Assembly: GCF_016862635.1 (NCBI RefSeq) | Contig: NZ_BONI01000016.1 | Location: forward strand, 62,001 to 126,000 | Reading direction: 5' to 3' | Source: Catellatospora coxensis | GTDB lineage: Bacteria; Actinomycetota; Actinomycetes; Mycobacteriales; Micromonosporaceae | Length of the DNA stretch: 64,000 bases | In this document: piece after piece, positions 44,272-57,970 of the stretch | Layout of the letters: each line of letters opens with the position of its first letter | Numbering within the stretch: position 1 is the stretch's first letter | Notes under the pieces: generated by a model | Told to the model about the DNA's origin: nothing | The model's database searches: none | What the model saw: the letters and a program-made list of their open reading frames with translations, nothing else | Program-made: the position numbers and the translations under genes

Positions 44272-44594
44272 TCGGCTGCCGGTCGACGAATGGCGGTCCG
44301 CCGCACTGGCGGCGGACCGGACCGGTCGACCTCGTCCACCGCCTTACGCACCGCAGCCTGCACCGGCTGCACTTCGATCAGGTCGTTGGGCGTGCAGCCG
44401 AGGATGTCGCACAACGCCGCCAGGGTGTCCATGCTGAGCCGCTGCGGAGGCTGGGTCACCAGCCGGAACACCTGCTCACGGGACAAGTCAACGCCGCGCT
44501 CGGCCAGCAGCGGCACCAGCTCCGTCGTGGCGTACATGCCCTTCTCCGCCATCCGCAGCCGCAGATGCCATGCGATGGCAAGTCCGCTGGTCAC
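44268..44594 (-). CDS. XRE/HTH_26-type small DNA-binding protein
   Basis: The 108-residue product is a Cro/CI-like helix-turn-helix: ATTELVPLLAERGVDLSREQ (first helices and turn), then RLSMDTLAALCDILGCTPND, the usual HTH_26 ending. A basic tail follows. GTG 44594 overlaps the recombinase stop (GTGA), and the gene's own end overlaps the zinc-ribbon gene by 4 bases (ATGA). Its position between the two recombinase-like genes suggests it regulates or assists recombination. Confidence 0.85.
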   Translation of the reverse strand: MTSGLAIAWHLRLRMAEKGMYATTELVPLLAERGVDLSREQVFRLVTQPPQRLSMDTLAALCDILGCTPNDLIEVQPVQAAVRKAVDEVDRSGPPPVRRTAIRRPAAE

Positions 44595-45709
44595 AACGCC
44601 TCCCACAGATTCGGTCCGCGTGTCTGCAGAGCACGGGTCAACAGCCGGTTGCGGTACTCGTCGGACACCCCGGTGTACAACGCGGTGGTGGAGGCGTAGG
44701 CGTGGCCGGCCTGCTCCTGCACGAACCGCTCGGGATACCCGAACTCGATCAAGTGCGTGACGTAGGAGTGCCGCAGGCAGTGCAGGTCCAGTGCCGGGTC
44801 CAGGCCGGCCGCCTCCCGGGCGGCGACGAACGCGTCGTTGAGGCTGCGCCACGACACCCGCTCATGGCGCTCGTTGACCCACAACGCGGCGTGGCCGGCA
44901 GGCTGGAACCTGGGCCGCACCTCGTCCAGCCACTGCTGCAGCACCGCGACGATCCAGTCCATCTCCGGCACCAGCAACACCGTGCGGCGCTTGGGCGGAC
45001 TGCCCCGCGACGACTTGCCCCAGCGCACCAGCGCAGCGCCGAACTGGCCGAAGTCCGGCACCCGCGGATTGCGACGAAGATCGGCCAGATCCAGACCCCA
45101 CGCCTCGCGGCGCCGAAGACCGAACGCATACACCGTCTTGAGCATCGCCGAGTCCCGCTGCGCAGCCAGGCCACCTTTGCGGCCCCGGGACCTGATCACC
45201 TCGACCCACCCATCTGCGGCATCGAACAACGCCTGGACCTCGTCATAGGTCAGCGGGCGCCGACCCGGCCGGCCCTCGTACTCTGAGACGTGCGCGATGG
45301 TGTTCCACTCGCCCAGAACCTGCCGCGGAGCACGCCCGAACCGCTCCTCGCACAGCTGCTGCCACTCGTAGCGCGGATCGGTGACGTATTCCAAGAACAA
45401 CTGGATGCCGTTGAGGTACGCCCTGGCCGTCGAGTACACGATTGGCTTCGGGCCACCCCGCAGGTGATCGACGAACGCCTCGACCTCTGCTGCGCTCCAC
45501 TCCCACGGGTACTGATTGGCAAAACGCGACAGCCGCCTCACCAGGTCCACGCGTCGCCGGATGGTCTCCGCCTTCAAAAACCGCACCCGCTGCTGCCGTG
45601 ACCAGCCCTCCAGCATGGCCTCCAGCACCGCCGGCGCCGGATCGAGAAAGACAACTCCCGATGACGGCAACAGATTGGGGGCGACGGTCGAGGCGGCCAG
45701 CTCCTTCAT
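44591..45709 (-). CDS. Tyrosine recombinase/integrase, intact
   Basis: The 372-residue product has a SAM-like core-binding domain (RVDLVRRLSRFANQYPWEWS, about 55-130) and the complete catalytic set. FGLRRREAWGLDLADL carries Arg I, LDLHCLRHSYVTHL carries the HxLRH box, QEQAGHAYASTTALYTG carries the second His and the nucleophilic Tyr. It is therefore predicted active. ATG 45709 was chosen; GTG 45724 is a longer alternative, and neither has a strong ribosome-binding site. It is first gene of the three-gene operon with the XRE and zinc-ribbon proteins. Confidence 0.9.
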   Translation of the reverse strand: MKELAASTVAPNLLPSSGVVFLDPAPAVLEAMLEGWSRQQRVRFLKAETIRRRVDLVRRLSRFANQYPWEWSAAEVEAFVDHLRGGPKPIVYSTARAYLNGIQLFLEYVTDPRYEWQQLCEERFGRAPRQVLGEWNTIAHVSEYEGRPGRRPLTYDEVQALFDAADGWVEVIRSRGRKGGLAAQRDSAMLKTVYAFGLRRREAWGLDLADLRRNPRVPDFGQFGAALVRWGKSSRGSPPKRRTVLLVPEMDWIVAVLQQWLDEVRPRFQPAGHAALWVNERHERVSWRSLNDAFVAAREAAGLDPALDLHCLRHSYVTHLIEFGYPERFVQEQAGHAYASTTALYTGVSDEYRNRLLTRALQTRGPNLWEAL

Positions 45710-45783
45710 GGTTGCATTAAACACAACATTGCGTCGTTAGTGACGGTATGACCCATTCGAGCCAGGCTAGCGGCGCGCCATGG

Positions 45784-46806
45784 TCACTCGAGCGGCTGAT
45801 CCCAGTCGTCACCCGCCATGCGAAGCAGTTGCATCGGAAGCAACTCCGCTCGTATGCGGTGAAACTTCGAGGAGTGCCGCCAGCGCCCGAACTCCCACGC
45901 CGTGTCGTGCTCGACCTCCACTACCAGCAGCGGCGGAACCTGTCGATACGGCAGCGGCTCGGTCACGCTGAACTGGCCGACCCACGCCGCAGGTAGCTGG
46001 TCTGGCCACGGGTGAACGGCGGGGCCGGCGAGCTCTGCCACGACGCGGAGCAGCGCTCCGACTTCACGGCTCTGCGCCCCGGTCAGCGGGCGGGTTCGGC
46101 CGACGTAGCGCAGAGTGCCGTTGCGGTCCAGCCGGCCCAGAAGCAGCGTGGCCGGCTGCCCAGGCGGACCGGTGATACCGCCAACGATCGCCTCCGCAGT
46201 TGAGGTCGCGCGTAGCTTTCGCCAAACTCGTCTGCCAGGTTCGTAGGCGGAGCCTCGGCCCTTGACGACCAGGCCTTCGGCGCCAGTGGCGGTGGCGTGG
46301 CGCAGCCAGGAACGGGCCTCGTCGGCGTCGCAGGTCTGCGGACACAACTGCAGCTGGGGCGGGGCGTCCGTCAATAGCTGTTCCAGTCGAACCCGGCGTT
46401 GCCACAGCGGACGTCGGCGCAGGTCGGTGTCTCCGTCGTGCAGCAGGTCGAATAGGACGAGGACGGCTGGATGGCGCAGCGACTCGCGGGCTATGGCACG
46501 TCCGGCGGTGAGCCGCCGGTGTAGCAGCGTGAACGAGGTCCGGTCCGCACTGGCGTCCCATATCACCAACTCACCGTCGACGACGGCGCCCGGAGGGAAG
46601 GCGCCTTGCGATGCCGCGACTATGTCGGGGAAGTACGGGCCTAGCGGCTTGAGTGCACGCGACTGCAGGTAGGGGGTCCGGGAGGCGAAGAGCACGCAGC
46701 GGTAGCCGTCCCACTTGATCTCGTAACAGCACCCGCCGGCGCAGCTGTCGGGCGCGGGCAGATCGGCGACCGGCTCAGCCTGCATCGGTTTGATCGGTGG
46801 TCGCAT
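45784..46806 (-). CDS. ATP-dependent DNA ligase (LigC-like, adenylation domain plus OB fold)
   Basis: The 340-residue product has the nucleotidyltransferase motif I YEIKWDGYR with the adenylated lysine (Lys31), then VVDGELVIW, SFTLLHRRL, VLFDLLHDGD (motif IIIa) and GLVVKGRGSAYEPGRR (motif IV/V), followed by a small OB-like domain. It lacks Ku/LigD primase parts, as in stand-alone LigC proteins of actinomycetes, which act in repair. AGG precedes the ATG. Its stop lies 60 bases from the recombinase start. Confidence 0.9.
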   Translation of the reverse strand: MRPPIKPMQAEPVADLPAPDSCAGGCCYEIKWDGYRCVLFASRTPYLQSRALKPLGPYFPDIVAASQGAFPPGAVVDGELVIWDASADRTSFTLLHRRLTAGRAIARESLRHPAVLVLFDLLHDGDTDLRRRPLWQRRVRLEQLLTDAPPQLQLCPQTCDADEARSWLRHATATGAEGLVVKGRGSAYEPGRRVWRKLRATSTAEAIVGGITGPPGQPATLLLGRLDRNGTLRYVGRTRPLTGAQSREVGALLRVVAELAGPAVHPWPDQLPAAWVGQFSVTEPLPYRQVPPLLVVEVEHDTAWEFGRWRHSSKFHRIRAELLPMQLLRMAGDDWDQPLE

Positions 46807-47259
46807 CTGCCTACCCCGCTGAAGGGACCCGCACCAAGATCCAAGGTAGCTCGCGACGCACGCCGAAGGGTAGCCACCAGGTGGACGGGGCCCAGCTGAA
46901 GGCGGTCGGGCCGCGGCAACCCGCCCGGCGTGCTGGACTCCACGTTCGGCAAGGATAACGCCAAATTGTGACAAAGCGGTCATGGGTTATATCCGCAGTT
47001 CAACCACAGCATCGCGATGCGCAGCGTGGCAGGGAGGGCAGGCCCGCACGACCTTTTGCGGCGTTGTGACGCTTGCCGGGGAGTCCCTCCGGCGGCCTCG
47101 TCGGCGGATCTGGCCTGGCCGAGCCTGCGTCAAGGTCAAGGCATCCGGGCGGGTGAGACCCCTGGGCGCAATGACTCCCCCACCCTCCGATGGGGGTATC
47201 GTGTCGAGGTTCCACTCATGTCGTTGGGCTCAAAGCAGGCGTAGCTGAGGGGTGGCGGG
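46807..47259. other. 453-bp divergent region between ligase and NUDIX genes
   Basis: It must contain both promoters. Open frames inside it lack support. No palindrome or repeat stood out. Confidence 0.35.
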
Positions 47260-47838
47260 GTGTCGCTAGAAGGACTTTCACGACGCATCGTACGGGATCT
47301 TGTGGCAGGGGTGAGCCCTCTTGACGCAGTCGAGCGCGGCCACCAAATCGATATCCTCGGCTGGATCGATGCTGGCTATGATTTGTTCCGGGTGAACCCT
47401 CCAGCGGATCCTCCCAAACACCTAGCGGTGTACTTCGCCTTGTTCGACGACGATGAAGGCACCGTGATGATGGTCGACCATAAGAAGGCCGCGGCGTGGT
47501 TGCTGCCCGGTGGCCACGTCGACCCGTATGAAGACCCACGGGTTACCGCTCTACGCGAGGCTGAGGAAGAGCTTCAGATCGCTGGCAAGTTCCACGATCT
47601 GACCGGAGACGCCCCGTTGTTCGTGTCCGTGACCGAAACCCGGGGCGCCCACAGCCACACAGATGTGACTCTGTGGTTCGTGCTCAAGGCCAGTCAGCGA
47701 GAGCTGTTCCGCCCCGACCCGGGTGAGTTCGAGGCGGTCGAGTGGTTCCCTTTGCGGGGCACCGACTGGGACGGGGACAGGTTCGACCCAAACATGGCGC
47801 GGTTTGTCAGGAAGCTCGATCAGTTGGCGTCGCAGTAA
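47260..47838 (+). CDS. NUDIX hydrolase
   Basis: The 192-residue product has a complete Nudix box, GGHVDPYEDPRVTALREAEEELQI (residues about 82-105, pattern Gx5Ex7REuxEExGu with EL replacing the last). An N-terminal extension (SRRIVRDLVAGVSPLDAVER) and a VDHKKAAAWLLPGGH strand are present. Nudix enzymes hydrolyse nucleoside diphosphate-X compounds. GTG 47260 is preceded by GAGGGG. Its last 32 bases overlap the end of the convergent PfkB-like gene, the last gene of the biosynthetic cluster, so it may be functionally tied to nucleotide metabolism there. Confidence 0.9.
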   Translation: MSLEGLSRRIVRDLVAGVSPLDAVERGHQIDILGWIDAGYDLFRVNPPADPPKHLAVYFALFDDDEGTVMMVDHKKAAAWLLPGGHVDPYEDPRVTALREAEEELQIAGKFHDLTGDAPLFVSVTETRGAHSHTDVTLWFVLKASQRELFRPDPGEFEAVEWFPLRGTDWDGDRFDPNMARFVRKLDQLASQ

Positions 47839-48727
47839 TCTCGGCGCTGGTCGGAAACGGATCGTCCTCCGTTCGTGAACACCACAGGCTGCCCGCCGAA
47901 CAGGCACGGGTGAGTGCGTCGTGTAGGACCGGCTGGCTCTGCAGACTGTCGAGCAGCGCAGCGGAGAAGACCGATCCTGCCCCTTGAACCTGCTTCACCG
48001 CGACCTTAAGGGCTGGGGCGTGGACGACGGTGTCGTCTGCATGGTGGACCGCGAAGGCGCCGAGGTGGCCAGCGGTTACGACAGCGACGTCGGCGGCGGC
48101 GGTCTGGGCCAACTGGACCGCGAGCCGGCCCGCGGCGTCAGGGTCGGTGTGGGAGGCATTGGTCTGCACAACGCGAGCTCGTGTCGTGGCGGGCCCACGC
48201 AGCCATCCTGGCAGCGGTCCACCGCCGAGGTTGAGGTAGATGTCGACGCCGAGGTCACATGCCGCATCGAAGACGCGCCGTGGAGCGTCGCCGAGGACCT
48301 CGTAGCAGTCGATGTAGACGGCAGATGCGCGGTGTAGTGGGCTGAGGTCGATGTCGTTCAGGATCGAGTCGATGCCGCGTAGGCCGGAGAACCAGGTACG
48401 GTTTCCGGCTTCGTCGCAGACCACGGTGTTGACCATCGTTGCCGTGGCCATGGCTGCGAGTGGTGTGGGTACGCCCCAAGTGCCGAGCCGGTCGGTGATG
48501 AGCTGACCTTGGGGGTCGTCGCCGATGGTGTTGGTGAGCAGCACGGGTTCCCGGCCGAGGGCGGCCAGGGCACCGGCGACGATGGGTCCGTCTCCCGCGA
48601 GGAAAGAACCGGTGCTGATGATCTCGATGCCGTAGTTGAGTTCAGGCATGCGCGGCACGCGCAGGGTATGGACGGCCGCAAGGTAGCTGAAGCAGGCGAT
48701 GGCGGATCTGGTCACGTCGGCTCTCAT
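47807..48727 (-). CDS. PfkB/ribokinase-like protein lacking the catalytic aspartate
   Basis: The 306-residue product has the ribokinase fold: AGDGPIVAGALAALGREPVL (N-terminal sugar site), LTNTIGDDPQG, SAVYIDCYEVLG, and the C-terminal ATP-side motif. In active PfkB kinases this is DTTGAGDAF; here it is VQGAGSVFSAALL (residues 247-259), so the catalytic Asp is Ser252 and the preceding DT is lost. It may be a non-catalytic subunit, a binding protein or an altered kinase. The start lies directly after the EEP gene stop (TGAATG context). It is last in the cluster and converges on the NUDIX gene. Confidence 0.82.
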   Translation of the reverse strand: MRADVTRSAIACFSYLAAVHTLRVPRMPELNYGIEIISTGSFLAGDGPIVAGALAALGREPVLLTNTIGDDPQGQLITDRLGTWGVPTPLAAMATATMVNTVVCDEAGNRTWFSGLRGIDSILNDIDLSPLHRASAVYIDCYEVLGDAPRRVFDAACDLGVDIYLNLGGGPLPGWLRGPATTRARVVQTNASHTDPDAAGRLAVQLAQTAAADVAVVTAGHLGAFAVHHADDTVVHAPALKVAVKQVQGAGSVFSAALLDSLQSQPVLHDALTRACSAGSLWCSRTEDDPFPTSAEITATPTDRAS

Positions 48728-49537
48728 TCAAATGCAGGTGTCGATGCTGGCGAGGATGGCCGAGTGGTCGGTGAGCACCCCGGTGCGGGGGTAGTGGTCG
48801 TAGGTGCAGCTGGTGAGGTGCCCGGCCGCGGGGCTGACGAAGATGTGGTCGAGTCGTTGGGCACCGTGCAACGGGTTGGTCCAGCTGTGGTCTTCGCCGT
48901 CAGGCTGTACGGCACGGTAGGCGTCGTTGGCGCCGAGTTCGATCAGGCCCCGGTAGAAGGCGTAGTCGTGGTCCCGGAAGTGCGGCAGCGGGGGCTGGTG
49001 GCCGGGTTCGATGGTGTTGAGGTCGCCGCCGATGACTACGCGTTTGGCGGCGTTGTGCCGTAGCCAGGCCAAGCAACGGCCTTGGAAGTCCGCCCGGCTG
49101 GCGCTGCTTAGGTCGGTCATGCCGTTGGTGGGGCCGTAGATGCCGACCAACTGGATCTCCCCGGCCTTGGACGACAGCGTCGCGGCGGTGACCCGGCCGT
49201 CGAATGCTGTCAGGTCTGCGGGCTTCACATCGGCGAATCCCTTGACCGCCAGGGCGCAGAAGTGTTTAGCGTTCTGCCAGCCGGAAGGCAGCACGGTTTC
49301 GTAGCCGGTGGCACGAAGGCTCGCGATCAGGCGACGGCCGCCGTCGCTGGGGTGCAGTTCGGTCAGGATCAGCGCGTTACTGCCGGTCGAGGTCAGCCAC
49401 TCCGCAAGACGTTCGGCGCGGTTGACGGATGGACCTTGGACGTTAAGCGCGCACACCGCCAGCTGCCGGTGGGCGAGTGTGTCGTCGACCGGCTGGCTGA
49501 AGGCTCCGAAGAGCAGATCCTGGATGGCGTCGCTCAT
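48728..49537 (-). CDS. Endonuclease/exonuclease/phosphatase-fold enzyme 1
   Basis: The 269-residue product has the EEP metal-phosphoesterase motifs: CALNVQG (N-terminal Asn), ALILTELHP (catalytic Glu), GIYGPTNGM, GGDLNTIEPGH (Asp/Asn) and the final LDHIFVSPAAGHLTSCTYDH with LTDHSAI (Asp/His). It is clearly paralogous to the gene at 56998 (same TCTYDHxPRTxxLTDH ending). Such enzymes cleave phosphodiesters or phosphates. It overlaps the cupin gene by 4 bases (ATGA), so it is coupled within the cluster. Confidence 0.88.
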   Translation of the reverse strand: MSDAIQDLLFGAFSQPVDDTLAHRQLAVCALNVQGPSVNRAERLAEWLTSTGSNALILTELHPSDGGRRLIASLRATGYETVLPSGWQNAKHFCALAVKGFADVKPADLTAFDGRVTAATLSSKAGEIQLVGIYGPTNGMTDLSSASRADFQGRCLAWLRHNAAKRVVIGGDLNTIEPGHQPPLPHFRDHDYAFYRGLIELGANDAYRAVQPDGEDHSWTNPLHGAQRLDHIFVSPAAGHLTSCTYDHYPRTGVLTDHSAILASIDTCI

Positions 49538-50217
49538 GCGGCAGGTCCGACGGGGGTCTTCAGCAGGTTTGTAATGTGGGCGGCACTTTCGACGAGCTGG
49601 TCGGCGGTCATCTGCTTGGCGGCACGCTCCTGCGGGGTTTCGGCGGCTTGGCCGTAGACCCAGAAGAACCGGTGCTGCTCGCGGTCGAGGATCAGGAACC
49701 TGTCTTTGGTAGCCGGTCCGCGTACCAGCAGCGAGAGGGTGTCTGCTTGCGCCTGGACGGTGTGGACGCTGGTGTGATGCAGGACGTAGCAGTCACCTGG
49801 CCGCTCGATGCGTTCGTGGATGGGGACGAGTGTGTCGGGGTCGAGGTCTTCGGTGAACGCGTCGTCGCGGCCGAAGACGCGGTGGCGGTACTGGCCGCGC
49901 AGGATGTTGCTGGCGAAGTTCCAGCGGTGGTTGTGGGGCCGGTCGAAGTAGCCATCGCGGTAGCGGTGCAGCCGCACCCGGATGCCGGGGTGAGGCAGGT
50001 CGGCGAGGACGAGTTTGTCGAGGAAGTCGTAGCGTTCGCACATCGCGGCCAGGTGGGCGTCGCCGGGTAGTCGCTGTACGAGTGCGGGCAGCAGGTCGGG
50101 TTCGCTGGCGACGGCGTCGAACAGCGTGGTGCAGCCAGCCAGGATCGAGGACGTGTCGTTCCAGTCGAGGGCCGTGAGGCTGGCCAGGGCAGGGTGGTCC
50201 AGCGGCGTTGAGGTCAT
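49534..50217 (-). CDS. Cupin-like protein in the biosynthetic cluster
   Basis: The 227-residue product has a helical N-terminal part and a cupin-type barrel: VRLHRYRDGYFDRPHNHRWN (HxH metal ligands) and PGDCYVLHHTSVHTVQA. It may bind metal and act as an epimerase, oxygenase or sensor; none can be chosen. ATG 50217 overlaps the formyltransferase stop by 4 bases and its own stop overlaps the EEP gene start. The C-terminal stretch is helical (QERAAKQMTADQLVE). Confidence 0.72.
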   Translation of the reverse strand: MTSTPLDHPALASLTALDWNDTSSILAGCTTLFDAVASEPDLLPALVQRLPGDAHLAAMCERYDFLDKLVLADLPHPGIRVRLHRYRDGYFDRPHNHRWNFASNILRGQYRHRVFGRDDAFTEDLDPDTLVPIHERIERPGDCYVLHHTSVHTVQAQADTLSLLVRGPATKDRFLILDREQHRFFWVYGQAAETPQERAAKQMTADQLVESAAHITNLLKTPVGPAA

Positions 50218-51539
50218 GTGGGCCTTCCTTCGGTGGCACCGTAGGGCGATTGGTCGAGGGTTCGTTTGAGGTGGGGATGCAGGCGGTAGAACTGCCGTGC
50301 CCCGTCCGCGGGTTGCGCTGTCGCGGGCGGCAGCTGCCCGGTCGAGGTGACGTGCTGGGCTGCCTGTAGGAGCAGCTCCAGCTGTAGCTGCTTGACCCGG
50401 TCTTTGAGGCTGGCCAGCGGGGTCGCTGGCACGACGGCGGAGGCGAGTACAGCTCCGGCGTCGACTTGGGTCGCGGCCAGGTGCAGCGTGCAGACGACTG
50501 GATCTCCGTTGATCAGGGCCCAGCCGACGGCGTCCATTCCGCGGTAGTCCGGCAGGGAGCCGTTGTGCGCGTTGATGAAGCCGATGCGAGCGGCGGCCAG
50601 GACGGGTTCGGGGACGATCGGCATACCGACCAGGACGACCAAGTCGGCAGCGGCCGCGGTGAGCGCCTGGGCGGTGGCGTCCCATCCGTGAACTTCGACG
50701 GGCGTGAACCCTGCCGCCGGCGGGGGTGGCGGGGCGATGCTGTCGTCAGCTGGCGGATACCAGGCGCTGGCGTACGCGGACTCCGCCGCGGTGTGTCCGG
50801 CGCCGTGGCCTGGTGTGAAGCTGACGACGTGCGCGATCGGTACGCCGTGTTGGCGTGCCATGTGCAGGAACCGCATGGCGCCAGCTGACCCGTGGCCGTG
50901 CAGGACTGCGATTCGTCCGCCGCGGCGCCCGGTGGCGGGTCGTGTGAGCGCCCAGGTCGACGACCCCGGGTCCTCTTTCGTGAGGGCGTGGTTTCTGAGC
51001 TGCTGCACGAGGTGATGTGTCGCCTGCTGGAGGAGTCCGGCGACCACCACCGCCTGTGTCCGCAGCTGCGGATCACCGCCGGCAGCGGCGTTGCCGCTGG
51101 TTAGGCGGATCCAGGCCGCCCCGAACAGCTTGCAGGCGGCGTTGAGGAACCGTGCGTCGCCGCTGTTGGCATGGACGGCGAGCCAGTGCTCGGCCAGCCG
51201 AAGCCACGTGATCGCTTCAGTTGGCGTCAGGCCGGCGACGGCCTCTGCGACCGGCGGGCGCCACAGGGCAGATGTCTCGAACGCGTGCAGCAGGCGCACG
51301 TCGTCGCCGGTGGGCGGCGCATGTCCGGGCGTGAGGTCCGAGGCCGGGATGTCGGGTGGCGTGGTGAACGGCAGGCGCCACGCTGTGGCGGCCAGCAGCG
51401 CGGAGGCCAGGTCCGGCATGTGCCTGGCTCCGGACCCGGTGGCGTCGGCGGCCAGTTCGGCAGCGACCTGGGGCAGGCAGAAGTCGCCGTCGAGTGCGCT
51501 GTGGACGGGAAACCGTCCGACGGTCGTTGATGTGGTCAT
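50214..51539 (-). CDS. Formyltransferase-domain protein with N-terminal extension
   Basis: The 441-residue product has about 190 helical residues of unknown type (LASALLAATAWRLPF, then TEAITWLRLAEHWLAVHANS). The C-terminal domain is of formyl-tetrahydrofolate transferase type, IGFINAHNGSLPDYRGMD (Asn and His of the NxHxSLLPxYRG motif) with LHLAATQVDAGAVL carrying the distal Asp. Such enzymes N-formylate amino groups, as in methionyl-tRNA or sugar-nucleotide formyltransferases. Next to a DegT aminotransferase this suggests an N-formylamino product. It overlaps both neighbours by 4 bases. Confidence 0.82.
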   Translation of the reverse strand: MTTSTTVGRFPVHSALDGDFCLPQVAAELAADATGSGARHMPDLASALLAATAWRLPFTTPPDIPASDLTPGHAPPTGDDVRLLHAFETSALWRPPVAEAVAGLTPTEAITWLRLAEHWLAVHANSGDARFLNAACKLFGAAWIRLTSGNAAAGGDPQLRTQAVVVAGLLQQATHHLVQQLRNHALTKEDPGSSTWALTRPATGRRGGRIAVLHGHGSAGAMRFLHMARQHGVPIAHVVSFTPGHGAGHTAAESAYASAWYPPADDSIAPPPPPAAGFTPVEVHGWDATAQALTAAAADLVVLVGMPIVPEPVLAAARIGFINAHNGSLPDYRGMDAVGWALINGDPVVCTLHLAATQVDAGAVLASAVVPATPLASLKDRVKQLQLELLLQAAQHVTSTGQLPPATAQPADGARQFYRLHPHLKRTLDQSPYGATEGRPT

Positions 51540-52771
51540 CGTGCGACCGCTTCGGTGACTTTCAGCAGCGAGGCGAGGTATCCGTCCACCAGCTCGGTGT
51601 CGCCGGGGTAGCCCCAGATCGGGATCTTGAGGAAGGTGCTTTCGAAGGCCTCGACACCTGGCAGCGCGGGAGCTGGACCGGCAGCGCGTGGCGTCCACGG
51701 CTCGTAGGGGTCGTGGCGCTGGAACAGCGGTTCACCGGCCAGGTTGCGGGTCGAGCCTGGTGCGTCGACCTCTCGGGCGCCTTCGGCGACGACGAGGTCG
51801 ATGAATTCGTCGCGGGTGACGGTGGCAGCTTGTGGGTGGAACGCGAAGCCGATCACATACAGGCCGTGGGTGCCGTGTTCCGGTGGTACGACGACGGGGG
51901 TGAGGACCGGGTTGCCGGTCAGGCCGTCGACGAAGGTGGCGAGGTTGGCGCGGCGGCGTTTCTCGATGTCGGCTGCGTGCTGCAGCTGGTGGACACCGAT
52001 CGCAGCACCGATGGTGGTGATGCGGTGTTTGAGGCCCATGCCGGTGAACGCGAACGGGTAGATCGGCGAGTCGCGGTCGATGTCGGACAGCGCCCTCTTG
52101 TTGTAGTGGGCGTAGAGGATGGCGAGGTCGCGGTGCGCTTTGAGCCGCGTGGTGAGGAGTCCGCCTTCGCCGGTGGTGATGGCCTTCTGGTTGGTGGAGA
52201 ACACGGCCATGTCGCCGAACGTCCCGATGCGCTGGCCGTTCCAGGAGGCGAAGTGGGCGTGGGAGCAGTCCTCGAACAGCAGCAGCCCGCGGCTTTCGCA
52301 GTACGCCGCGATGTCGGTCATGGCGCAGGGGTTGCCCCACATGTGGGTCACGATGACCGCGCGGACGTTCGGGGCCATGACGGCTTCAATGCTCGCAGCG
52401 GTGACGTTGCCGTACTCGTCGGCGTCGGCGAAGATCACCTCGATGCCGTCGAACGCGAAGGGGCTCGCGGTCGCCAGGAAGGTGTAGGCAGGAGCGATGA
52501 TCGCGTCACCGGGTTTGAGGTCGGCGATCCGACCCATTGCGTGGATCGCCGCGGTGCCCGACGCGAACGACACCACGTGCTCGGCACTGGCGAACTTGGC
52601 GAACTCCTTCTCGAGCTCGCCGATGATGCCGGAGGCGTCCCGGTCGGAAAGGGACCGGTGCGCCTGAACGATGATCGCTTGTTCCAGGCTGGCGTTCATG
52701 TCGGGCCAGCGGTAGTGCGGTCCTGGGATGTCGAGGGTTTTGGCGCCGCCTCGGGCGGCCAGGGTGGTCAT
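51536..52771 (-). CDS. DegT/DnrJ/EryC1/StrS-family PLP aminotransferase
   Basis: The 411-residue product is a full-length DegT-fold enzyme. Substrate and PLP motifs are IGELEKEFAKFASAEHVVSF, ASGTAAIHAMG, APAYTFLATASP and VIVTHMWGNPCAM. LLFEDCSHAH carries the PLP-pyridine Asp, and FSTNQKAITTGEGG carries the Schiff-base Lys196. Family members aminate keto-sugars or inositol ketones in natural-product pathways. ATG 52771 overlaps the kinase stop, and its end overlaps the formyltransferase start (ATGA), so amination followed by formylation is a natural reading of the gene order. Confidence 0.93.
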   Translation of the reverse strand: MTTLAARGGAKTLDIPGPHYRWPDMNASLEQAIIVQAHRSLSDRDASGIIGELEKEFAKFASAEHVVSFASGTAAIHAMGRIADLKPGDAIIAPAYTFLATASPFAFDGIEVIFADADEYGNVTAASIEAVMAPNVRAVIVTHMWGNPCAMTDIAAYCESRGLLLFEDCSHAHFASWNGQRIGTFGDMAVFSTNQKAITTGEGGLLTTRLKAHRDLAILYAHYNKRALSDIDRDSPIYPFAFTGMGLKHRITTIGAAIGVHQLQHAADIEKRRRANLATFVDGLTGNPVLTPVVVPPEHGTHGLYVIGFAFHPQAATVTRDEFIDLVVAEGAREVDAPGSTRNLAGEPLFQRHDPYEPWTPRAAGPAPALPGVEAFESTFLKIPIWGYPGDTELVDGYLASLLKVTEAVAR

Positions 52772-53493
52772 CGGCGGGAACCTCCGTAGGTGAGGGTGTC
52801 GTGGTGCCTCAGCTCGGCGACGATCGGAGACAGCCGTGCTGCGGTCTCGGGGGCTTGTTCGTCGGCGTCGACGAGCAGCGTGGGCCAGCCGCGCCGGACG
52901 GCTGTTTCGCGCAGCAGCCGCTGGCCGTCGGTCTGGTAGGTGATGAACGTTTCTTTGCCGAGGTCGGGCAGCGCGGCGTGCATGCCGAGTTCGGCGGGGC
53001 GGAACTGGCCTTCGCGGCGGTCGTAGAGCGCGGCCGGGTCCGCGGTGAGCAGGATGACCGCGTCGGGCATGCGGACCCTGCTGAAGGTGGCGTCCAGGAC
53101 GGCCTGGTCGTAGCCCTGCAGGATGAGTTTGGAGAAGAACTTGTAGACCCAGCCGTCGACGATCACGTCGAGGCCGGAGTCCAGCAGTGGTCCGATCACC
53201 GTCGTGGAATGGGCGGTGAACCAGGCGGCCTGCAGCGGAACCCAGAAGCTGTCGGGCAGGTCCGGGCTGTCGCCGCTGCCCCACAGCATCGTCGACAGAT
53301 GCCCCATGAGCCCGGCGGAGTATGCGGAGGTCGCTGACATCTGCCGCCGTGACACGTACACCAGCCGGCCAGTCGGCGGGTCCTCGCCAGCGGCTTTGAG
53401 CCCCTGTTCGTAGTCGAGGTCGGCGACCATCCGGGCCAGGGTTGTCTTACCGACGCCGTCGCCGCCTTCCAGAGCAAGGAATCGTCCGGCCAT
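52768..53493 (-). CDS. Thymidylate-kinase-like P-loop kinase
   Basis: The 241-residue product opens with RFLALEGGDGVGKTTLARMV, a dTMP-kinase-type P-loop. It has VDGWVYKFFSKLILQGYD in the region of the DR(Y/W) substrate motif and ends with FITYQTDGQRLLRETAVRRG. It is longer than typical thymidylate kinases (about 200-215) and the substrate motif is altered, so it may phosphorylate a pathway intermediate rather than dTMP. AGAGGT lies 6 bases before ATG 53493. The end overlaps the DegT gene by 4 bases. Confidence 0.85.
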   Translation of the reverse strand: MAGRFLALEGGDGVGKTTLARMVADLDYEQGLKAAGEDPPTGRLVYVSRRQMSATSAYSAGLMGHLSTMLWGSGDSPDLPDSFWVPLQAAWFTAHSTTVIGPLLDSGLDVIVDGWVYKFFSKLILQGYDQAVLDATFSRVRMPDAVILLTADPAALYDRREGQFRPAELGMHAALPDLGKETFITYQTDGQRLLRETAVRRGWPTLLVDADEQAPETAARLSPIVAELRHHDTLTYGGSRR

Positions 53494-53508
53494 GTTCGTA
53501 CCTCTCAT

Positions 53509-55629
53509 CTAGTTGCCGCAGGATTCGGCGGCGTTGATCAACTGCCAGCCCGACGCCGCCCGCCACCGGCTGTGCTCATCGACCATCAGTTGCCGCGCCG
53601 AGGCGGGCAGCCGAGGCCCGGTCTCTGCGACGGTCTTGTCCATCACCTCGGCCATGTCCGCAATGGCGGAGTCCATCGCGGCCCGAAGCCGTGCGTCCAG
53701 GCCGGCTTCGTCGGGGTGCTCCGGGGGGAACTGCCCGATCAGGTCCAGCATCCGGCCGAGCAGGTCGAAGGCCGCGGTCTTGATCACCACGCGGGCGGAA
53801 CGGACCGCGTGGTAGGCATCGCCGTCGAGGATCTTCGCCAGCGACTTGAACGTGTAGTCCAACGCGAAGTTGCGGTCGACCCACAGCTGGGCGTGGTGTG
53901 AGGCGCGGCCGATGCGCCAGTCGGCGAAGTCGGCGTCGACCCGGCCCATCGACGGACGCATCGCGCCGGCGAGACCGGCCTGCGCCACTTGCTTGGTATA
54001 GGCGGCGCCGATGAGGCACTCCATGCTGACCAGCAGGTACGAGATCGCGCTGTAGAACGGCTTGCCGGTGCTGTGCTGCGCGACGAACTGCTCGTCGCGG
54101 ACTCCCTCGACGATCTGTTCCACGCTCAGGTGCGCAAGGGGACGCAGTAGTAGGTCGGTGCGGCCCTGGAACGCATGGGTGGCTGCCAGCTCGTCAGCGG
54201 TCATGAGATGGTCGAATGTGATGTAGGTGAAGCGCGGCGGGACACCCAACGCGGTCAGTGTCCGGATCGCGAGCGCGTTCTGCTCGCCGGTGGTCTCTTT
54301 GTTGAAGCGGGTGAGGATGGAGTCGACGCCGGACTCGACGCCGAACAGCATCCGGCGCAGGCCATAGTCGACCAGTTGGCGCCACATCTGAGCCCGTTCG
54401 ATATGCCATGCGCGGCTTTGGTCGGGTAGCACGACCTGGTCGACCCGGCACGATGACTCCCACCGGTAGCCGTGGTCGTGGAGGGTCCGGCCGAGCGACA
54501 GTGCACGTTCGACGACGTTGTCGCCGCGGCCGATGAACTCCTCGTCGACGAGGTAGAGGGTCCGGCTGATGTCGGGATGCTGGTCGAAGACGGTGCCCAT
54601 CGCGCGTAGCAGCCATGGCAGGTTGCTTCCGTCCGGGCCAGCCCAGATGCCTTTGTGTCCGCGGGGGCAGAACGAGCAGAAGTTCGTGCACCCACGTGAT
54701 GCCTCGAGCTGGGCGACGCCGTGATGGGCGAAGGTCGTGGCCAGCAGGTCGAGTTCGGGCAGGAAGTCGGTCTGGTTTCTGTTGGAGGTCACGGCGTTGC
54801 GGCGTACACCGATCTGCAGGCCGCCGCCGTGGGCCGCTCCGGCGTAGCCGATGCCGTTGACCTGCGCGAGTTCGATGTCGCCGTGGAAGTAGGCGATGAT
54901 GTCGGCGATGGTCGGCTCGCCGGCGCCGCGGGCGACCAGCAGGCGTGGGTACTGCTCCAGCAGCAGGCGTTCGTTGCGGGCGGTCAGGCTCCCGCCAGCG
55001 AGGACCACGGGCGGCTCGGGACGGGCGAACAGCTCGTCAAGCAGTTCGATCATCAGGTCGTGCTGCCCGAAGGTCGCCGAGATGCCGACGATGTCGGGCC
55101 GGTCAGCGTCGACGGCGGCGAGCACATCGGCCGGCGAGACGCCGAGCTGCATGTCCATCAGACGTACTTGCCCGGACAGTGTGGATCGCGCAGCGCGGGC
55201 GAGGTCGGAGATGGCCAGCGGGAACCGCGGCAGCGGAAAGGTCTCCTTGTGGTACAGCGCCGTGAGCAGGATGTTGGGGCGCAGCAGCCGCCGCTGGCCT
55301 TCCGGTGTGATCGTCGCCAGGGAGCTGTCCTGCGCCGGGTCGGCGACGGCGAGGTGGTCCCTTGCCCAGGTGGGCCATGCCCGGTCGCGCAGGGTGCGGC
55401 CGGACAGCTCGGCGAGCACCCAGTCGTCGCTGGCGGGGACCTTGGCGATCAGGAGCCGGTGGTCGAGGGTTCCGGTGAGAGCCACGGGCGTCTGCAGATG
55501 TGCGCGCAGCCGGTCGACGGTGGCCATCGGCTGGGTCAACTCGTCGTCAAAGCCGGCGAGTGTGGCCGCTGCGCTGTGACCGGTTACCAGTTGGAGGGCG
55601 TTTTCCAGGCGTTGCTTGGGGGTGAGCAT
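53509..55629 (-). CDS. B12-binding-domain radical SAM enzyme
   Basis: The 706-residue product (ATG 55629; a longer start at 55689 adds 20 residues) has an N-terminal unknown region. A cobalamin-binding-like Rossmann domain follows at about 165-260 (LAAVDADRPDIVGISATFGQ, then VVLAGGSLTARNERLLLEQY). The radical SAM core carries the cluster motif RGCTNFCSFCPRG (Cys314, 318, 321) and DEEFIGRGDNVVERALSLGR. A long C-terminal helical extension completes it. Such enzymes make C-C, C-S or methyl transfers or rearrangements on unactivated carbons. It is central in the cluster and 15 bases from the kinase start. Confidence 0.92.
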   Translation of the reverse strand: MLTPKQRLENALQLVTGHSAAATLAGFDDELTQPMATVDRLRAHLQTPVALTGTLDHRLLIAKVPASDDWVLAELSGRTLRDRAWPTWARDHLAVADPAQDSSLATITPEGQRRLLRPNILLTALYHKETFPLPRFPLAISDLARAARSTLSGQVRLMDMQLGVSPADVLAAVDADRPDIVGISATFGQHDLMIELLDELFARPEPPVVLAGGSLTARNERLLLEQYPRLLVARGAGEPTIADIIAYFHGDIELAQVNGIGYAGAAHGGGLQIGVRRNAVTSNRNQTDFLPELDLLATTFAHHGVAQLEASRGCTNFCSFCPRGHKGIWAGPDGSNLPWLLRAMGTVFDQHPDISRTLYLVDEEFIGRGDNVVERALSLGRTLHDHGYRWESSCRVDQVVLPDQSRAWHIERAQMWRQLVDYGLRRMLFGVESGVDSILTRFNKETTGEQNALAIRTLTALGVPPRFTYITFDHLMTADELAATHAFQGRTDLLLRPLAHLSVEQIVEGVRDEQFVAQHSTGKPFYSAISYLLVSMECLIGAAYTKQVAQAGLAGAMRPSMGRVDADFADWRIGRASHHAQLWVDRNFALDYTFKSLAKILDGDAYHAVRSARVVIKTAAFDLLGRMLDLIGQFPPEHPDEAGLDARLRAAMDSAIADMAEVMDKTVAETGPRLPASARQLMVDEHSRWRAASGWQLINAAESCGN

Positions 55630-55755
55630 CCTGTGGACTCCATCGATGGCAGGGCGGGGACCGCCCACGGGTATGAGGGTGTGAGCCATCGAGCTCGCAG
55701 CGTGATTGCTGCGGGCTTGAATGAGGAGCGGGAGAGCTAGATCGCTGCCGGCGGG

Positions 55756-56835
55756 TCAGCGGTGCTCGTCGACGAACACCTCCCCGGTGCCGTCGAGCTG
55801 CTGCTGGACGCCGGACATGATCGATCGTGCGACGGCGATGTGGGTGTCGTCGGGGCGCATGCGCAGCGCGGCGAGGTTCTGCTCGACTTGGTCTGCGGTG
55901 GTGAACCCGGCCAATACCGCTGCGTCGTCGAACCTTGTCAGGCATGCCCACAAGGCGACCGCGACCAGGTAGGTGGGGTCGTCTCCGATCACCTGCTGCA
56001 GGTCGCGGATCCCTTGGTTGATAATCGATTTGGCGTCGGGTGTGAACCATCGCTTGCGGCTGCGGTGATCGCCGGGTCCGAAGTTCCGTTCGCGGCCGGA
56101 TGTCGTGGCGGCGGTCAGCAGGCCTTGGCTGAGCGGCTTGTTGAACAGCACGCCGCAGTCGTGCTCGGCGGCCAGTTCGAGGATGCCGGTCAGCCGCGAC
56201 GCGGGGGTCAGCAGGTTGTCGCGTACGGCGAGGACCTCTGGCTGGATCTGGCCGAAGATCCGGCCGAACCTTTCGATCTTGTCGGTCCTGTCCCCGGTAA
56301 CTTGCAGGCGTTCGGGGGCGTAGCGGTGTGGGCCGCGCATACCGACGGCCCGGATCAGGCCTTGGCTGCGGAAGGAGCGCATCGCCTCGACGGCGCCGTG
56401 GAGCCAGCGGTCATCGGGCCCGAAGTCCGGGTGATGCAGGAAGTAGACGTCGAGGTAGTCCGTGCGCAGGTTGTCCAGGCTCTGTTCGAGTTGGCGCCGC
56501 ATGTGGCCGGGGTGGTAGCCGTGCTCGGCGGTGCCGGCGAAGTAGCCGACTTTGGACGTCAGAGTCAGGCTTTCGCGGGGAACCTCGCTGACCAGGTGGC
56601 CGAGCAGACGCTCGGACCGGCCGTGGCCGTAGACGTCGGCGGTGTCGAAAAGCCTCGCACCCAGCTCGTATGCTTTGCGCAGGCCAGCGGCTGATGCGTC
56701 GTCGTCGGCGGTGGACCAGCCCATCGGCATGCCGAGGTTTTCGGCGGGGCCGCCGATCGCCCAGCAACCGACGCCGACCGCCGGTACGACGATGCCTGTC
56801 CGGCCGAGCCTTCGCTGTGCGAGGTGGTCGTTCAC
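55756..56835 (-). CDS. Aldo/keto reductase
   Basis: The 359-residue product has the AKR barrel sequence: LGRTGIVVPAVGVGCWAIGG, AYELGARLFDTADVYGHGRS (catalytic Asp and Tyr), SLTLTSKVGYF (Lys), DYLDVYFLHHPDFG (His) and a GGVLF-type end of the NADPH site (CGVLFNKPLSQG). It would reduce an aldehyde or ketone. GTG 56835 is preceded by AGGGGG. Tandem 11-bp repeats and an inverted TGTCGGA pair lie just upstream, so it is probably directly regulated. Confidence 0.93.
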   Translation of the reverse strand: MNDHLAQRRLGRTGIVVPAVGVGCWAIGGPAENLGMPMGWSTADDDASAAGLRKAYELGARLFDTADVYGHGRSERLLGHLVSEVPRESLTLTSKVGYFAGTAEHGYHPGHMRRQLEQSLDNLRTDYLDVYFLHHPDFGPDDRWLHGAVEAMRSFRSQGLIRAVGMRGPHRYAPERLQVTGDRTDKIERFGRIFGQIQPEVLAVRDNLLTPASRLTGILELAAEHDCGVLFNKPLSQGLLTAATTSGRERNFGPGDHRSRKRWFTPDAKSIINQGIRDLQQVIGDDPTYLVAVALWACLTRFDDAAVLAGFTTADQVEQNLAALRMRPDDTHIAVARSIMSGVQQQLDGTGEVFVDEHR

Positions 56836-56912
56836 TCGCGCCCCCTGTCCTGATAGCTCGTGAGCTGTCTATTTTCCGGGGTCCACGACGATGTCGGACA
56901 GTGGCAAGCGGC

Positions 56913-56934
56913 GACTCCGACAATCCGCTGACAT
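56913..56934 (-). promoter_or_regulatory. Two 11-bp direct repeats upstream of the aldo/keto reductase
   Basis: Read on the reverse strand as AATGTCAGCGG then ATTGTCGGAGT. Each unit spans one helical turn, matching the three units at 57938-57970. A TCCGACA inverted copy lies downstream, closer to the gene. Such tandem repeats are typical of SARP-type or similar activator sites. Confidence 0.6.
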
Positions 56935-56997
56935 TGACACTCGCTATCGACAGCGAGGTGATCGTGCCGCTACCGATACGGGTTCACCATACGGAGA

Positions 56998-57798
56998 TCA
57001 AAACAGTGTTCCCGCGGTCACGGGCGAGGAGGCCTCGTACGGGAGGTGGTCGACCCTGACGTCGAATTGCGCGGACACGGCAGCGTGGTCGGTGAGCAAG
57101 TCCGTCCGTGGCCGGTGGTCGTAGGTACAGGCCATCAGACGCGGCAGGAGCTTCGGCGAGAGGTGAATGTAGTCGAAGCAGTAGGGGTTTCCCGAGCGTC
57201 CGTGCCAGGAGTGCTCCTGTTGTGCGTGCAGGTGTCGGTAGGCGTCAACGAGGCCTAGGTCGCCGGTTAGGGCGTCCATGAAGCCGTACTCCCAGGAGAG
57301 GAATGTTCCGCGGTATGCCGGATCGTGGTCACGCGTGATGACGTTGTAGTCGCCACACAGAACCAGCCCGTCGCGCTGCTTCGACGGCATGTCCTTCAGC
57401 GATGTGACGAGGCTGTTGAGGAACTCCCGCTTCTTGCCGACTTTGTCAGCGCTGCGGTCGCTGGACGGAACATAGATCCCGTACACCGTCACCTCGGGAT
57501 CGGTTTTAACCGAGCAGGCGACCGCGCGGCCGGGCAGCGACAGCGAACCCGTCAGGTCCGGCAGGGGTGTCAACGGTAGGCGGCTGACGATCGCGCAGCC
57601 CCGGTCCCCCGCCGCGCCAACGTTGGTTAAGACGCTCCAGCCGGCCTCCTGACATCGAGTCAGCAGATGGCCGGTTCCGTCACCAGCGCTGGTCTCGGTA
57701 AGCACGAAAACATGATCTTCTCGTCCGTCGAGCCACTGCAGCAGTGCCACCGCTCGAGGCAGCGCAGCTGCCTGGATGTTCACCGTAGTGATCAGCAT
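56998..57798 (-). CDS. Endonuclease/exonuclease/phosphatase-fold enzyme 2
   Basis: The 266-residue product (ATG 57798, chosen because the upstream frame looks non-coding) has the EEP motifs TTVNIQA, VFVLTETSA (Glu), VYGIYVPSS, VLCGDYNVITRDHDP (Asp/Asn) and a CFDYIHLSPKL then ACTYDHRPRTDLLTDHAAV ending (Asp/His). It shares this ending with EEP1 at 48728, so the two arose by duplication and bracket the cluster. It is preceded by three 11-bp repeats and heads the cluster's transcription. Confidence 0.87.
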   Translation of the reverse strand: MLITTVNIQAAALPRAVALLQWLDGREDHVFVLTETSAGDGTGHLLTRCQEAGWSVLTNVGAAGDRGCAIVSRLPLTPLPDLTGSLSLPGRAVACSVKTDPEVTVYGIYVPSSDRSADKVGKKREFLNSLVTSLKDMPSKQRDGLVLCGDYNVITRDHDPAYRGTFLSWEYGFMDALTGDLGLVDAYRHLHAQQEHSWHGRSGNPYCFDYIHLSPKLLPRLMACTYDHRPRTDLLTDHAAVSAQFDVRVDHLPYEASSPVTAGTLF

Positions 57799-57937
57799 GC
57801 GAGCTCCCGGGCTGTTGGCGGTGAACTGTTGGCGGCTCCAGGGAAACCGCGGGCATCGTCGCGTTCTGCTCCCCGTGCGGTGAACAGTTTGCGTCAACTA
57901 GACATCGCGGACACTCGGCCGGCAACACCACCCCGGC

Positions 57938-57970
57938 ACTTCCGACAATCTGCCGACAATGCGCTGACGC
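57938..57970 (-). promoter_or_regulatory. Three 11-bp direct repeats upstream of EEP2
   Basis: Reverse-strand units are GCGTCAGCGCA, TTGTCGGCAGA and TTGTCGGAAGT. They are spaced exactly 11 bp apart, in the 278-bp divergent region between EEP2 and the unknown gene at 58077. They share the TGTCGG core with 56913-56934. Confidence 0.65.

Follow-up and report, generated by a model that had tools for sequence, protein, structure and literature searches.

A ten-gene cluster in the analyzed DNA of Catellatospora coxensis (the window, a stretch of 64,000 nucleotides) can be read as an OxsB-type pathway to a ring-contracted nucleoside with added tailoring steps, and we give this general claim, which does not require all of its steps to hold jointly, a probability of about 50%. 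The key component is a cobalamin-dependent radical SAM enzyme (rSAM; positions 53509 to 55689, minus strand), which by sequence is an OxsB-family protein. The earlier note on this DNA had called it a B12-type radical SAM enzyme and thereby overlooked the main clue, since homology to OxsB directs attention to a nucleoside of the oxetanocin type and away from a generic sugar. OxsB is a B12 enzyme; acting on dAMP or dATP, it contracts the deoxyribose to an oxetane aldehyde. Just two natural oxetane nucleosides are known, namely, the antiviral and antibacterial oxetanocin A and the herbicide albucidin (PMC13331322). The cluster may make a third kind of these very rare four-membered-ring nucleosides, and its amine- and formyl-adding gene set next to an OxsB relative matches no pathway that we found described.

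All nine reverse-strand genes of the earlier note were present as open reading frames with zero internal stops (coordinates refer to the best starts). Seven of them form a tightly chained run, which extends from a PfkB-fold gene (47807 to 48727; PF00294, 2.2e-12) through EEP1, a second phosphohydrolase of the ExoIII fold (48728 to 49537; PF03372, 1.4e-7), a cupin-like protein of the thiol-dioxygenase type (49534 to 50217), a formyltransferase of the 10-formyl-THF type (FT; 50214 to 51539; PF00551, 7e-16), a DegT/DnrJ/EryC1-type PLP aminotransferase (DegT; 51536 to 52771; PF01041, 6e-59) and a TMK-like P-loop kinase (52768 to 53508; PF02223, 1.1e-7) to rSAM, all on the minus strand. Four junctions are 4-base overlaps (EEP1/cupin, cupin/FT, FT/DegT and DegT/TMK), and two abut with zero bases between them (PfkB/EEP1 and TMK/rSAM). 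The aldo/keto reductase gene (AKR; 55756 to 56835, minus strand; GTG start; PF00248, 2.5e-34) and the gene of the ExoIII/AP-endonuclease-fold phosphohydrolase EEP2 (56998 to 57798, minus strand; ATG start, with an alternative TTG start at 57897; PF03372) are set apart by 66 and 162 bases. The EEP2 gene holds one TTA codon. A convergent NUDIX hydrolase gene (47260 to 47838, plus strand; PF00293, 7e-20; Nudix box) overlaps the PfkB 3' end by 32 bases and accompanies the cluster at six (the window, L009, L010, L024, L037 and L042) of the seven full loci. It belongs to the cluster, which thus comprises ten genes; the interval of 47807 to 57970 given earlier was slightly off in leaving out this gene, which travels with the other nine. 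Pfam backed the family names of all ten proteins except the cupin, whose fold was assigned from profile, Foldseek and motif, and no cluster protein reached the cutoff of a curated equivalog.

The sole PDB sequence match of rSAM was OxsB (5ul2; E = 5.6e-75 by phmmer, query residues 134 to 622), and BLASTP gave 33% identity and 51% positives over 510 aligned columns. OxsB and AlsB are reported to have 44.1% "sequence similarity," a measure that may differ from BLASTP positives, and they are interchangeable, both giving the same bicyclic intermediate (PMC13331322). The likeness of rSAM to OxsB spanned the cobalamin, radical SAM and C-terminal domains; the CxxxCxxC motif (C334-C338-C341), DEE, GVESG and residues of the C-terminal domain were kept in the alignment, and the B12-binding domain was detected just under the curated cutoff (PF02310, 1.5e-7). 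The AF2 models of rSAM (pLDDT of 56) and the cupin (pLDDT of 49) did not have the quality needed to compare active sites, and therefore only the ranking of Foldseek matches was used. The top three matches of rSAM were OxsB (1.4e-24), the first of them spanning the full length, and the next match followed at 5e-5. Ring contraction is a predicted step well supported by homology, and we consider an OxsB-type ring contraction on a nucleotide probable.

Related actinobacterial loci shared a recurring core consisting of an OxsB-like enzyme, an aldo/keto reductase and a phosphohydrolase. The AKR gene adjoined that of rSAM in most of these loci; the phosphohydrolase was likewise found in most of them, with a family that varied between EEP and CYTH. 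SurE adjoined a distant rSAM relative in Sphingobium. The cluster AKRs were 46 to 64% identical to the window AKR, compared to at most 39% for other AKRs of the window's own genome, and appear from this to form a cluster-specific subfamily, with D64, Y69, K95 and H134 invariant (13/13). Oxetanocin synthesis requires an aldehyde reduction, for which the oxetanocin cluster encodes no reductase (PMC7074753, PMC13331322). The core AKR is a candidate for this missing enzyme; the odds that it acts on the aldehyde arising from ring contraction appear even to us. The literature searched gave no match for OxsB together with an aldo-keto reductase.

The catalytic N, E, D-x-N and DH were invariant in all 18 EEPs, including EEP1 and EEP2, and the nearest relative of EEP2 in its own genome was EEP1. 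EEP2 is a candidate nucleotide phosphatase. The EEPs were nevertheless closer to DNA-processing ExoIII than to nucleotide phosphatases, with profile matches to ExoIII, AP endonucleases and the LINE-1 endonuclease (ExoIII/APE1 among PDB profiles for EEP2). APE1 and ExoIII clean DNA 3' ends, and the EEPs could accordingly be self-protection nucleases, clearing DNA 3' ends of incorporated nucleotide analogues that block the chain, instead of biosynthetic phosphatases. We regard this as unlikely, as one clade has CYTH in the place of EEP, CYTH proteins act on small phosphates, and the full clusters carry two EEPs each. The self-protection role would touch a single step and could hold alongside an oxetanocin-type pathway.

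The remaining genes center on a block, TMK-DegT-FT-cupin-EEP1, with an identical gene order in all seven full loci (the window, two Actinoplanes-type loci, two further genomes, a Nocardia plasmid and a Streptomyces plasmid). Recurrence of the same genes in seven loci from several genera, with a constant block order, places the cluster beyond chance. The claim of a conserved orphan biosynthetic cluster was borne out: in relatives, the genes do not lie dispersed, we found no characterized product that the cluster matches, and the literature searched contained no described cluster with the gene set of the window. On the two plasmids, TMK and DegT are fused. The motif NQK196AITTGEGG of DegT, with the catalytic Lys196, was invariant in seven orthologues. 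The N...H...D triad of FT (N323, H325 and D360) was invariant as well; FT, whose profile matches included PurN (2.9e-13), carries an N-terminal extension of about 200 residues. The idea that an aminotransferase and an adjoining formyltransferase yield an N-formylamino group proved right as a suggestion. The cupin had no Pfam match. Among profiles, it resembled mercaptosuccinate dioxygenase (8vni), though weakly (E = 0.0066); Foldseek matched it to the same structure (3.5e-6, on the low-confidence model), and H95 and H97 were invariant in a PH-x-H motif.

The two kinase-like proteins, which the earlier note had taken as a sign of phosphorylation, are weak evidence for it. The GAGD motif of the PfkB-like protein is replaced in all five aligned sequences (GAGS in the window and GAGA in four relatives), indicating a probable pseudokinase whose catalytic Asp was lost across its subfamily; its gene was found in just three of the seven full clusters and also occurs apart from them. 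The TMK-like protein matched dTMP kinases (6.5e-15) and kept the P-loop GGDGVGKT but has DGW where those kinases have DR[YHF], i.e., it lacks DRY. Clusters unrelated to this one encode TMK-like proteins, too, and no literature match was found for dTMP-kinase-like genes in nucleoside clusters. Phosphorylated, nucleotide-like intermediates themselves were judged likely.

Core and block need not serve one product. Seven loci (L029, L038, L039, L041, L045, L078 and L079) have the core without the block, and this absence of DegT and FT means that the block could supply a building block of its own, to be joined at a later stage: rSAM, AKR and EEP2 would give an oxetanocin-like alcohol, and the block a phosphorylated, formylated amine that is either attached or independent. 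The block indeed behaves as a fixed unit, with three changes on the rSAM tree as if a cassette had been gained or lost (the tree was built without AlsB, and its deep part is unresolved, with long branches), and AsnB-type amide synthetases lie near two full clusters. The window cluster, on the other hand, has no ligase, and in all searches made the DegT block was seen solely alongside an OxsB-like gene. We consider two separate products or moieties rather unlikely. That DegT and FT act on the same scaffold as the ring-contraction enzyme is itself tentative, at somewhat less than an even chance; adenine as the base falls just short of an even chance.

In the oxetanocin-type pathway that we propose, the OxsB-like enzyme would take a 2'-deoxynucleotide, probably a deoxyadenosine phosphate, and shrink its furanose to a four-membered oxetane bearing an aldehyde. 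Judging from conservation of the core, the AKR would be a dedicated reductase of this aldehyde or of a shunt form, and EEP2 (CYTH in other loci) would take off the phosphate. DegT, either in concert with the TMK-like kinase or drawing on what that kinase supplies, may transaminate an aldehyde of the phosphorylated intermediate to an aminomethyl group, which the PurN-like FT would N-formylate from 10-formyl-THF. EEP1 and NUDIX would then strip phosphates to give the free nucleoside or limit how much of the active phosphorylated form builds up in the producer, while the cupin and the PfkB-like pseudokinase may be accessory or regulatory. The end product would be an oxetanocin-type (form)amido nucleoside. 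With adenine as the base, the predicted [M+H]+ values are 252.109 for oxetanocin A, 251.125 for the aminomethyl analogue and 279.120 for the N-formyl analogue. The most specific version is doubtful: N-formyl-aminomethyl oxetanocin would join the two known natural oxetane nucleosides as a third chemical type, a kinase-aminotransferase pair would divert the aldehyde from reduction to transamination, and the core would mark a wider, partly plasmid-borne oxetane-nucleoside family of Actinomycetota. The DegT/FT extension would show how the aldehyde from ring contraction is turned into an amine instead, a chemistry new to oxetane nucleosides. The related actinomycete loci form a set to mine for relatives, and the B12 radical SAM field gains substrates and partner enzymes with which to test what OxsB-like enzymes release. 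Two points count against the pathway: neither a transporter nor an obvious amide ligase was found in the window cluster, and AKR and DegT would be rivals for one aldehyde if both acted on it.

Another point against it is Thr206 of the window rSAM, which occupies the position of OxsB Asn186, as in the aligned relatives, including an Agrobacterium protein (OxsB being the one proven family member in this alignment, next to AlsB as the other known one). Asn186 coordinates a water under the cobalamin and is not known as a family-defining residue, and B12 radical SAM enzymes are mostly methylases. The Thr in the window clade would fit another radical rearrangement or a methylation of the nucleotide, leading to a product without an oxetane; OxsB and AlsB methylate as a side reaction (PMC13331322). 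This alternative is improbable, since the likeness to OxsB covers the catalytic and C-terminal domains and lies far above that to TokK, CysS and TsrM. An NDP-(formylamino)sugar pathway, in part suggested earlier, would suit DegT (similar to perosamine and PseC-type sugar aminotransferases) and FT (similar to sugar N-formyltransferases, among others), but it was rejected as very improbable, as the companion enzymes are missing (by Pfam, the cluster encodes neither a nucleotidylyltransferase nor a sugar dehydratase, an epimerase or a glycosyltransferase) and the OxsB homologue would be left unexplained. Anti-phage defense (no PADLOC match for 10/10 proteins) and a phage origin (no match in phages or viral contigs) were also rejected.

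Three known systems are comparable. The oxetanocin A cluster of Bacillus megaterium (OxsA/OxsB) shares an OxsB-family enzyme and a phosphohydrolase with the window; the latter is of the HD type in OxsA, whereas the window has EEP and related loci have EEP or CYTH, and Pfam found no HD domain among the ten window cluster proteins. The window adds a dedicated AKR, TMK, DegT, FT, cupin, EEP1, PfkB and NUDIX. With the albucidin cluster of Streptomyces albus subsp. chlorinus (albA/albB, i.e., AlsA/AlsB), it shares an OxsB/AlsB-type ring-contraction enzyme and an actinomycete host. Instead of a second radical SAM enzyme (AlsA) and the ribonucleotide-reductase-like albC, both absent from the window cluster, whose genes encode a single radical SAM protein, the window has AKR and the aminotransferase/formyltransferase pair. 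In the puromycin pathway, nucleotides are the substrates of the aminotransferase Pur4, the NUDIX hydrolase Pur7 and the phosphatase Pur3 (PMC11641026), which sets a precedent for such enzymes in the window cluster. The genes shared by the puromycin, A201A and ADG clusters (pur10, pur4, pur7 and pur3) include no OxsB-like enzyme and no formyltransferase but follow a common logic of carbonyl, aminotransferase, NUDIX and phosphatase on nucleotides; there, the carbonyl is made by a dehydrogenase, whereas in the window it would arise by ring contraction.

The cluster on the reverse strand of the window (47807-57798) is filed here as OxsB-family nucleoside biosynthesis, yet it is neither the oxetanocin cluster, whose HD-type OxsA it lacks, nor the albucidin cluster, whose AlsA it lacks. 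The assignment centers on its cobalamin radical SAM enzyme (rSAM). OxsB (5ul2, E = 5.6e-75) was the only solved protein that rSAM matched by sequence, with 33% identity and 51% positives over 510 aligned columns. Ranking with a low-confidence AlphaFold model of rSAM placed three OxsB structures at the top (1.4e-24) and TokK and CysS far lower (5e-5). OxsB accepts dAMP, dADP or dATP and contracts their deoxyribose; the related enzyme AlsB performs the same contraction on dAMP in albucidin synthesis, with a strained bicyclic intermediate common to both (PMC13331322). Set against the 44.1% sequence similarity quoted in that review for OxsB and AlsB, the values for rSAM suggest about the same distance from OxsB as that which apparently separates these two enzymes of proven ring-contraction activity, although the similarity measures may differ. 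OxsB Asn186, which holds a water under the cobalt, is replaced by Thr206 in rSAM and its aligned relatives.

Relatives turned up in 10 of 399 genomes from the order (including a few weak matches, which are only distant relatives), 5 of 395 from the class and 4 of 396 from the phylum; the window's own genome is counted every time, and thresholds were unequal between the three sets. Named source loci came from Actinoplanes/Paractinoplanes, Longimycelium and a Pseudonocardiales MAG, and further relatives lay on plasmids of Streptomyces, Nocardia and Agrobacterium. Genes for rSAM, an aldo/keto reductase (AKR) and an ExoIII-fold phosphohydrolase (EEP) occurred together in the window and in related loci L009, L010, L024, L029, L037, L038, L039, L041, L043, L045, L078 and L079. 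A CYTH-domain protein replaced EEP as the third gene in one well-supported rSAM clade (99/99; L025-L028) and was also present in L030, the sequence of which was too broken for the tree. CYTH proteins bind or hydrolyze triphosphates. The cluster AKRs formed their own subfamily (46 to 64% identity to the window AKR, compared to at most 39% for other AKR genes of the window's genome). In oxetanocin synthesis, the OxsB aldehyde must be reduced by an enzyme absent from the oxetanocin cluster, and a phosphohydrolase is likewise required (PMC7074753; PMC13331322). An oxetanocin-type pathway complete in itself would be expected to have just such a set: OxsB, AKR and a phosphohydrolase of exchangeable type. 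This core is not universal, since the Longimycelium locus (L011) carries rSAM without a close AKR or EEP.

All nine reverse-strand genes listed in the earlier note were present with open frames. Neighboring genes overlapped by exactly 4 bases at four pairs and met with zero gap at two, while gaps of 66 and 162 bases set AKR and EEP2 apart; several mechanically listed ORFs begin too early, and likelier starts were used for gene coordinates. The cluster end proposed earlier was not borne out: a convergent NUDIX gene (47260-47838, forward strand) overlaps the end of the PfkB gene and is kept with the cluster in five of six relatives having the extended gene set. Past NUDIX, one flank has two site-specific-recombinase-like genes and a gene resembling DNA ligase, and the other flank holds genes of unknown function and a LexA-like gene (LexA and the larger recombinase are labels read from the sequence, without a database match). 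These flanking genes look unrelated to the cluster. The region beside the cluster at 41980-46983, with recombinase-like genes of 377 and 763 residues and the ATP-dependent ligase-like gene, is a possible genomic island; the 763-residue protein, which had no match in Pfam, contains numerous zinc-ribbon-like CxxC motifs.

In seven loci, a block encoding a dTMP-kinase-like protein (TMK), a DegT aminotransferase, a formyltransferase (FT), a cupin and EEP1 joins the rSAM/AKR genes in constant order: the window, L009, L010, L024, L037 and plasmids of Nocardia NBC_01327 (L042; AKR present, single EEP) and Streptomyces europaeiscabiei (L043). These plasmids were the only ones in the plasmid collection with close DegT relatives, and on both TMK and DegT are fused as one polypeptide (683 and 626 residues, respectively); the kinase-like protein and the aminotransferase thus probably act one after the other. 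Three changes on the rSAM tree were needed to explain the extended clusters; thus, the block was probably gained, lost or moved more than once. DegT has its PLP lysine, FT (nearest to PurN) its N/H/D triad, and both EEP1 and EEP2 their catalytic residues. In FT (gene at 50214-51539, reverse strand), the N-terminal 200 or so residues are also conserved, with D128, R130, N133 and K137 invariant, and match no known domain. The cupin weakly resembles thiol dioxygenases. PfkB probably does not work as an ordinary kinase, because Ser or Ala stands in place of the catalytic Asp of the GAGD motif in five of five aligned sequences; it had no tblastn match in four of the seven full clusters. TMK has the P-loop but DGW instead of DR[YHF], the canonical motif of dTMP kinases.

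Homology, gene order, kept catalytic residues and the recurring core are direct observations. In the proposed scheme, established OxsB ring contraction would be joined to the logic of puromycin biosynthesis, in which a nucleotide carbonyl is transaminated and a NUDIX enzyme, together with a phosphatase, then removes phosphates (PMC11641026); the ADG cluster has the same four gene types (PMC9239236). We infer the substrate, the step order, which amine is formed and what each phosphohydrolase does. Predicted masses were calculated from three proposed formulae, C10H13N5O3, C10H14N6O2 and C11H14N6O3. The main weakness of the scheme is that AKR and DegT would contest one aldehyde. The block may use a second carbonyl instead or make a separate piece. 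In the open-licence literature, no report was found that pairs an OxsB homologue with either a reductase or an aminotransferase.

Several further loci were observed. OxsB-like genes appear truncated, frameshifted or split in L012, L028, L030, L040 and L045 (the last adjoined by a transposase), and pathway loss may be frequent. A nucleotidyltransferase-like GSFGTR...DLDLG motif marks a protein of some 200 residues, possibly a self-resistance determinant, whose gene lies close to the OxsB-like gene and mostly on the other strand (L012, L029, L038, L040, L041, L043, L045, L078 and L080); searches of Pfam and PDB gave no match. In four loci that lack OxsB (L056, 8556-12271; L067, 7767-9589; L068, 7764-11440; L069, 7858-10407), cupin relatives recur alongside an AAA-type kinase and a different radical SAM enzyme, and some of these loci also have PfkB-like and NUDIX genes; they form a second, unrelated-looking cluster family reusing the same accessory genes. 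The chromosomal locus L052 (7901-15776) has a partial TMK-like gene (48 to 50% identity) with AsnB-like, pirin and methyltransferase genes; OxsB, DegT and FT are all absent. On an Agrobacterium plasmid (L044, 11761-15631), an OxsB-like gene (40% identity to the window rSAM) comes before another radical SAM gene and a NUDIX gene, a layout resembling the two-enzyme arrangement of albucidin. Three successive genes of a Sphingobium conjugative plasmid (L075, 4937-8098) encode a SurE nucleotidase, a distant OxsB-like radical SAM protein and a NUDIX protein.
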